From Caldivirga sp. (GTDB taxonomy: Archaea; Thermoproteota; Thermoprotei; Thermoproteales; Thermocladiaceae): 28,174 bases of DNA. The stretch lies in assembly GCA_028275645.1 (NCBI GenBank), contig JAPWUH010000003.1, positions 1 through 28,174 of the forward strand, given 5' to 3'. The translations under genes and the position numbers were made by a program. The notes under the pieces were generated by a model, which saw only the letters and a list, made by a program, of their open reading frames with translations, was not told where the DNA came from and searched no databases. This document shows positions 11,103-11,943 of this stretch, piece by piece. Every line of letters begins with the position of its first letter. Position 1 is the first letter of the stretch.

Positions 11103-11711
11103 TTATTTGCAGTTTAGAAAGAGAACAGGCCTTACATTAATGAATAACACCCTCCAATCACCCCACCAATCATCCTTGAACACAGCCGATACGGAGCCTG
11201 TATCCACGCTAACCCTATAAATGTTACCTAAGTCGGACTTAACAATACCCATTATTAAGGATGCTATGGGTTGGTAGTGGGAAACTATGACTGCGTCCTC
11301 CTTGATGCTGTTTAAAGCCCTCATCATCCTCATCAGCACTGACTCGGCCGATTCACCACCAGGTGGTGGGTGCTTAAGTGGGTTCCTTGAGTAGTCCAGG
11401 AAGGGTTGCCCAATGTCCCTAATCCTCTTAAGCTCCCACTCCCCCATGTCAACCTCCTTAACATCATCGTTAATAATGACCTTGGCGTTGAGTTCCTCAG
11501 CCAAAATACTGGCAGTTTCCCTAGCCCTAAGCAGCGGTGACGATATTACGTATTTAACGCCCCCAGCTATGCTTCTAATGAACCTAGCGGCGCACAGTGC
11601 CTCTAAGCGCCCCCTCTTGGTTAATGGACCAATGTTAACATCCCTGCTTTGCAGTATCCCCTCCCTGGTTAGGGTTGATTCACCATGCCTAACCAAGTAA
11701 ACCACAACCAT
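11103..11711 (-). CDS. Histidine phosphatase (phosphoglycerate mutase superfamily)
   Basis: The protein uses a phospho-histidine intermediate to move or remove phosphate. VYLVRHGEST carries the nucleophilic His; SSPLLRARETA has the second Arg; VDMGEWE contains the acid/base Glu region; and VSHYQPIASL has the second catalytic His. Substrates in this superfamily include phosphoglycerate, sugar phosphates and alpha-ribazole phosphate, so only the family can be assigned. A GTG at 11723 is possible, but I prefer the ATG at 11711 (about 202 aa) because the TATA box (CTTAATAAAG, 11740-11731) is 24 nt from it and only 12 nt from the GTG. It is divergent from the tRNA half at 11789. Confidence 0.88.
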   Translation of the reverse strand: MVVVYLVRHGESTLTREGILQSRDVNIGPLTKRGRLEALCAARFIRSIAGGVKYVISSPLLRARETASILAEELNAKVIINDDVKEVDMGEWELKRIRDIGQPFLDYSRNPLKHPPPGGESAESVLMRMMRALNSIKEDAVIVSHYQPIASLIMGIVKSDLGNIYRVSVDTGSVSAVFKDDWWGDWRVLFINVRPVLFLNCK

Positions 11712-11757
11712 CAAATGAGCCACATTAAGCCTTTATTAAGCGTAACGATGCGAAAGG

Positions 11758-11765: not shown

Positions 11766-11788
11766 TCCAACCCTATAGTGGGTATTTA

Positions 11789-11853
11789 GCCCCGGTAGTA
11801 TAGCCCGGTCAAGTATACGGCGCCGACCACCATCCCTAGGGATCCCGGAGCTT
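11789..11853 (+). tRNA. Split tRNA-Glu gene, 5' half with trailing intervening segment
   Basis: Bases 11789-11795 (GCCCCGG) are the 5' acceptor strand of an archaeal tRNA-Glu. TA at 8-9, a D-stem GTAT/ATAC (11798-11801 and 11815-11818) and a D-loop AGCCCGGTCAAGT follow, all in canonical spacing. After position 26 the sequence runs GGCGCC and then departs from a tRNA: there is no anticodon loop for Glu, no T-loop (GTTCRAAT) and no full CCGGGGC strand. Instead there is a GC-rich stretch (GACCACCATCCCTAGGGATCCCGG) and a pyrimidine run CTTCTTCCC that could end transcription. This is the layout of a trans-spliced 5' tRNA half. The exact joining site cannot be set without the partner, which is not in this window. 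Confidence 0.75.
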
Positions 11854-11943
11854 CTTCCCAGTAATGCCTATTGCACCCTTACGCCTGTTCATTAGTGCGG
11901 TTAAGCATTTAAGTTCCCTATCATTAAACTGGGAGGTCACGGG

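Follow-up and report, generated by a model that had tools for sequence, protein, structure and literature searches.

A tRNA-Glu(UUC) encoded in two separate pieces was reportedly described in Caldivirga maquilingensis by Fujishima et al. in 2009 (PNAS). In the portion of a review available to us this tRNA is one of four two-part split tRNAs of the species (PMC4390854), and its junction is given as 25/26 in the accessible part of a second source (PMC4090602). The split tRNA-Glu(CUC) and tRNA-Glu(UUC) of Nanoarchaeum equitans are likewise trans-spliced from two transcripts (PMC4033280, PMC4390854, in the parts available). As described there, two 5' halves of N. equitans share one 3' half, whereas in Caldivirga a single 5' half goes with a single UUC 3' half.

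Here we analysed a stretch of 28,174 nucleotides (the window), a contig in the assembly of a heat-loving archaeon of the genus Caldivirga; the assembly comprises 1.32 Mb in 209 contigs and is 67.85% complete. Its genome (G000) was compared with four other Caldivirga genomes, namely G001 (one contig of 2,077,567 bases), which we take to be C. maquilingensis, Caldivirga sp. MU80 (G002), Caldivirga sp. UBA161 (G003) and G004. In our reading, to which we assign a probability of about 95%, the segment from 11789 to about 11850 is a working 5'-half gene of tRNA-Glu(UUC) that is split at 25/26, has its own promoter and is joined in trans to a separate 3' half. The half is orthologous to the split tRNA-Glu(UUC) known from C. 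maquilingensis, on the basis of a histidine phosphatase neighbour in 5/5 genomes including G001 and of the 25/26 junction given in the accessible part of PMC4090602. The window's split tRNA-Glu(UUC) is therefore of a kind already known from that species, with the same isoacceptor and the same junction, and G001 has both halves with a complementary trailer and leader. It differs from the C. maquilingensis gene in belonging to another species, in a trailer core that reads CGACCACCA instead of CGATCACCA and in a 3' half that is not in the assembly. The sequence-only reading of the window had pointed to fragmented tRNA genes in C. maquilingensis, Glu among them; for glutamate this holds for the UUC isoacceptor and for no other. 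No survey of split tRNAs in Caldivirga species was found in the open-access literature searched, as judged by title and abstract.

The 5' half and its surroundings

The exon GCCCCGGTAGTATAGCCCGGTCAAGTAT corresponds to tRNA-Glu positions 1-25 (28 nt) and occurs only once in the window (Table 1). The same sequence begins tRNA-Glu genes that are contiguous in sister genera, among them L126 and L148, without a single difference, so that the resemblance of the exon to a tRNA is not due to chance. Directly after it the sequence continues as ACGGCGCCGACCACCATCCC and so on, a GC-rich segment that is not tRNA sequence, and inspection up to the next open reading frame (11944) found neither an anticodon arm nor a T-arm. 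The proposal of a free-standing tRNA-Glu 5' half, made from the letters of the window, was thus borne out. ARAGORN reported no tRNA in the window and nor did Rfam at the gathering threshold, as expected for half a gene; for annotation this means that the 5' half was missed by both finders used on the window.

The promoter-like box ends 23 nt upstream of the tRNA start in the window, and TTATTTAA lies 22-24 nt upstream of the exon in all five Caldivirga 5' halves. Pyrimidine runs (at least 5, a loose criterion) are found in the trailer region of 5/5 Caldivirga genomes. On the side of the 5' half that faces away from the histidine phosphatase gene, a GTPase gene adjoins in the window and in MU80; in the other three Caldivirga genomes, 1.5 kb beside the 5' half were inspected and no such gene was found. 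The GTPase protein of the window shows 93% identity to that of Caldivirga sp. MU80 and 81% to that of Caldivirga sp. UBA161, which places the window in Caldivirga, though in none of the named species encountered in the analysis.

Table 1. Features of the tRNA-Glu(UUC) 5'-half locus, in window positions
Feature	Position	Strand	Remarks
Divergently oriented gene of the histidine phosphatase superfamily; marker of the orthologous locus	11103..11723	-	PF00300; same head-to-head arrangement in 5/5 Caldivirga genomes
Predicted archaeal promoter, BRE-like GCGAAAGG and TATA-like TTATTTAA	11750..11765	+	Box picked by eye; putative function
5' exon (acceptor 5' strand plus D-arm, ending at position 25) of tRNA-Glu(UUC)	11789..11816	+	Identical in 5/5 Caldivirga genomes and to the 5' part of sister-genus contiguous tRNA-Glu
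3' trailer of the half transcript, intron-like arm	11817..11850, complementary core 11818-11832	+	CGGCGCCGACCACCA pairs 15/15 with the MU80 3'-half leader
Pyrimidine-rich tract CTTCTTCCC, possible transcription end	11851..11859	+	Putative terminator

Partner 3' halves and their predicted pairing

A search with window positions 11770-11870 recovered the 5' half in 5/5 Caldivirga genomes, the 28-nt exon and the adjoining ACGGCGCCGA being identical in all of them. MU80 is the nearest relative of the window among the Caldivirga genomes compared, and the two agree at 93% over 97 bases at the 5' half. Each of the four other genomes also has a free-standing tRNA-Glu(UUC) 3' half that starts at position 26 (GTGGGCCTTTCGAGCCCG...CCGGGGC), the G004 copy with an insert. 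The leader of this 3' half is a perfect complement of the 5' trailer of the same genome over 18, 15, 15 and 16 bp in G001, G002, G003 and G004, respectively. Each of these genomes has two exact copies of the 15-mer TGGTGRTCGGCGCCG, one lying upstream of the 3' half and the other being the reverse complement of the 5' trailer; the window's genome has one, at the 5' half. The two arms also change together, with a T-A pair in G001, G003 and G004 versus C-G in MU80, which amounts to one event on the tree; the window's trailer has the C form and pairs 15/15 with the MU80 leader but over only 9 consecutive positions with the other three leaders. The separate UUC 3' halves with complementary leaders, in 4/4 other Caldivirga genomes, support the proposal of the sequence-only reading that the tRNA-Glu is split and trans-spliced. 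That reading had marked a segment, GACCACCATCCC, as the pairing one: a complementary segment exists, but the one that matches the MU80 3' half, CGGCGCCGACCACCA, starts before GACCACCATCCC and omits its last four letters. In 4/4 3' halves the complementary leader is preceded by a TATA-like box (picked by eye, in one of three spellings) whose end lies 20-21 nt upstream, and from this spacing the 3' transcript would begin near the pairing segment.

Cofolding of the window's 5' half with the MU80 3' half gave -72.4 kcal/mol, and energies ranged from -70.6 to -74.5 kcal/mol over this combination and the G001-G003 pairs. The window with G001 gave -66.8 kcal/mol and the G004 pair, with its 3' strand cut at 46 nt, -57.6 kcal/mol. 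In a shuffle control of the 20-nt trailer, 0/200 shuffles reached the observed energy in each of six pairings. In 5/6 cofolds a relaxed bulge-helix-bulge is predicted at the junction: a 3-nt AUA bulge lies past a short AGU/GCU helix, after which the 3' cut AG^G would fall. The central helix of the motif has 3 bp plus a mismatch. The motif is absent from the fold of the G004 pair with its shortened 3' strand. The small central helix is likewise absent from the minimum-energy fold of shortened junction-only constructs in 3/3 pairings tried, and the bulge-helix-bulge is for this reason to be taken as a predicted motif.

Joining the window's 5' exon to the 3' exon of the relatives yields a sequence that ARAGORN calls tRNA-Glu(ttc). 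The joined exons equal the contiguous Glu(UUC) L239 of the sister-genus genome G017, which places the split at 25/26. A reading of all 3'-half matches at E <= 1e-8 in the five Caldivirga genomes, the window's being incomplete, revealed no contiguous tRNA-Glu(UUC); a Glu(UUC) gene with an intron inside the matched part could fail to reach this cut-off. Apart from the four 3' halves, these matches are Glu(CUC), Asp and His genes by their anticodon loops, the Asp and His labels having been read by eye. Glu(CUC) is contiguous in G001, G003 and G004, and MU80 has two copies of it with an intron at 25/26. An intact tRNA-Glu for both anticodons had been named in advance as evidence against a split; in the Caldivirga genomes searched only Glu(CUC) is contiguous. 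In 24 open reading frames chosen from the window's 43, glutamate is encoded by GAA 90 times and by GAG 307 times, so a tRNA for GAA is needed.

The predicted 3' half, ending in CCGGGGC and led by a complementary segment, is found in 4/4 other Caldivirga genomes but not in the window's own 67.85% complete assembly, where pattern, similarity and 15-mer searches did not find it. The flanks of the MU80 3' half were not found there either: with 40 of 60 candidates scored, a 3-kb query around that half gave no matches other than tRNA bodies, although at the 5' half the window and MU80 are as similar as stated above. The assembly thus very probably lacks the region with the 3' half, and little can be concluded from not finding it. 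The own 3' half, a presumed partner, would carry TGGTGGTCGGCGCCG directly upstream. A guessed pattern of the full T-arm gave 0 matches in this genome. A looser one gave 17, of which 8 lie in known tRNA matches and the other 9 have one or two mismatches; none of the 17 recurs in the 3'-half search except two His genes, and none has a complementary leader. No other tRNA-Glu was found in the assembly, the 5' exon search returning the window alone and the 3' search the two His genes. Among its 21 tRNA matches are 9 for which ARAGORN gave no anticodon, and none of these, read by eye, has the Glu 5' exon.

Proposed maturation and alternative explanations

Two half RNAs are very probably joined into one tRNA. 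The 5' half would be transcribed from its own promoter, and its trailer would pair with the leader of the separately transcribed 3' half to form the relaxed bulge-helix-bulge. A heteromeric tRNA splicing endonuclease may then cleave at AU^A in the 5' half and at AG^G in the 3' half, after which the ligase RtcB may join the exons into a mature tRNA-Glu(UUC) that is expected to read GAA codons. The splicing endonuclease (PF01974) has two matches in each of the 5 Caldivirga genomes, the window's included, as expected for a heteromeric enzyme, and the heteromeric endonuclease accepts non-canonical sites according to the available part of PMC4033280. RtcB is present in the window's genome. Its match there (L268, G000:C21:4925-7657) comes in two pieces, profile positions 1-50 and 46-426, about 1.4 kb apart; both lie within an open frame of 960 amino acids and the gene looks as if it contained an intein.

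A tRNA remnant, i.e. a non-functional 5' fragment left by recombination or by integration of a mobile element into a tRNA-Glu gene, would agree with the lack of a partner in the own assembly, and a tRNA fragment does seem to occur in the family, where G019 has a 3' piece of Glu(CUC). A remnant is hard to reconcile, however, with an exon that is unchanged in 5/5 genomes although the trailer and the partner's leader covary, with the conservation of the promoter-like box and of the locus, and with the finding of no contiguous Glu(UUC) in the five Caldivirga genomes, one of them incomplete. The conserved partner in four relatives already largely refutes this explanation and we consider it very improbable. 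An assembly artefact was rejected as the same half is present in five assemblies. The G019 fragment (L250, G019:C12:76900-77030) runs from near the anticodon stem, has unrelated upstream sequence and may represent either a further 3' half or what is left of an attachment site.

It is also conceivable that the 5' half is common to two tRNAs, for instance by serving Glu(CUC) as well. Two tRNA-Ala of C. maquilingensis share one 5' half according to the accessible part of PMC4390854, and some contiguous Glu(CUC) genes, L124 and the copy on MU80 contig C47 among them, begin with the same 28-nt exon. Yet besides the 5' half only one site per genome in four genomes has the exact 15-mer, its half carries the anticodon UUC, and Glu(CUC) is in one piece in these four genomes, with a cis intron in MU80. 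We consider a shared half very improbable and retain a 5' half dedicated to tRNA-Glu(UUC).

Relation of the split to introns at 25/26

Reviews propose in general that split tRNAs derive from introns (PMC4033280 and PMC4390854, in the parts available). We surveyed 20 genomes of the same family outside Caldivirga, with loci chosen from search matches and rows of repeated sequence dropped. Glu(UUC) is uninterrupted at 25/26 in 18/20 of them, the copies of G013 and G014 having an insert near 37/38; no Glu(UUC) gene was found in G012 and G022 (76% and 79% complete), which were counted as misses. Two Glu(CUC) genes of MU80 are interrupted at 25/26 by cis introns, as is its tRNA-Asp. These introns occupy the same position as the split and show in the fold the same 3-nt AUA bulge at the 5' splice site, and those on contigs C82 and C74 end in CUAAG^G as does the split leader; unlike the split halves they are continuous in cis, with inserts of about 20-26 nt. 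Given the uninterrupted sister-genus genes and these cis introns, the Caldivirga split most plausibly goes back to an intron at 25/26. No 25/26 intron within a Glu(UUC) gene itself was seen in Caldivirga and the 20 family genomes, so that we infer the step from intron to split from other tRNAs.

Some of the MU80 copies lie on unusual contigs. The second tRNA-Glu(CUC) with a 25/26 intron (L166/L174) is on a 4221-bp contig (G002:C47) whose surroundings show 75% and 91% identity over 1.3 and 0.5 kb to the sister-genus genome G020, while a stretch of 359 bases recurs both at another place in MU80 and in the window's genome. This may be a mobile element or a foreign contig. Three tRNA-Asp copies (L222, L223 and L253, on G002 contigs C74, C81 and C30), two of them only partly seen, apparently have the same 25/26 intron. 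All three lie close to contig ends and are perhaps one repeat that broke the assembly.

The G004 3' half (L227, G004:C7:10950-11200) has 21 extra nucleotides, ATGGGGTTTAACCCAGAAGTG, at 37/38 and reads like the other 3' halves once these are removed. With this insert the tRNA would need splicing both in trans and in cis. Published examples exist of permuted tRNAs that contain a canonical intron (PMC3218864, in the part available), and no split tRNA with a cis intron was found in the open-access literature searched, as far as the accessible text goes; on thin evidence the G004 arrangement may therefore be novel. We think it somewhat probable that the split Glu(UUC) is fixed throughout Caldivirga and arose on the stem of the genus from a 25/26 intron, the G004 3' half additionally having a 37/38 intron and being both trans- and cis-spliced.

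The uninterrupted 25/26 site of the sister genera (18/20) together with the MU80 cis introns makes this route from intron to split testable. An oddity published for one isolate is conserved across the Caldivirga genomes examined, with pairing arms that change together, which is what one would expect if the trait is functional rather than a relic.
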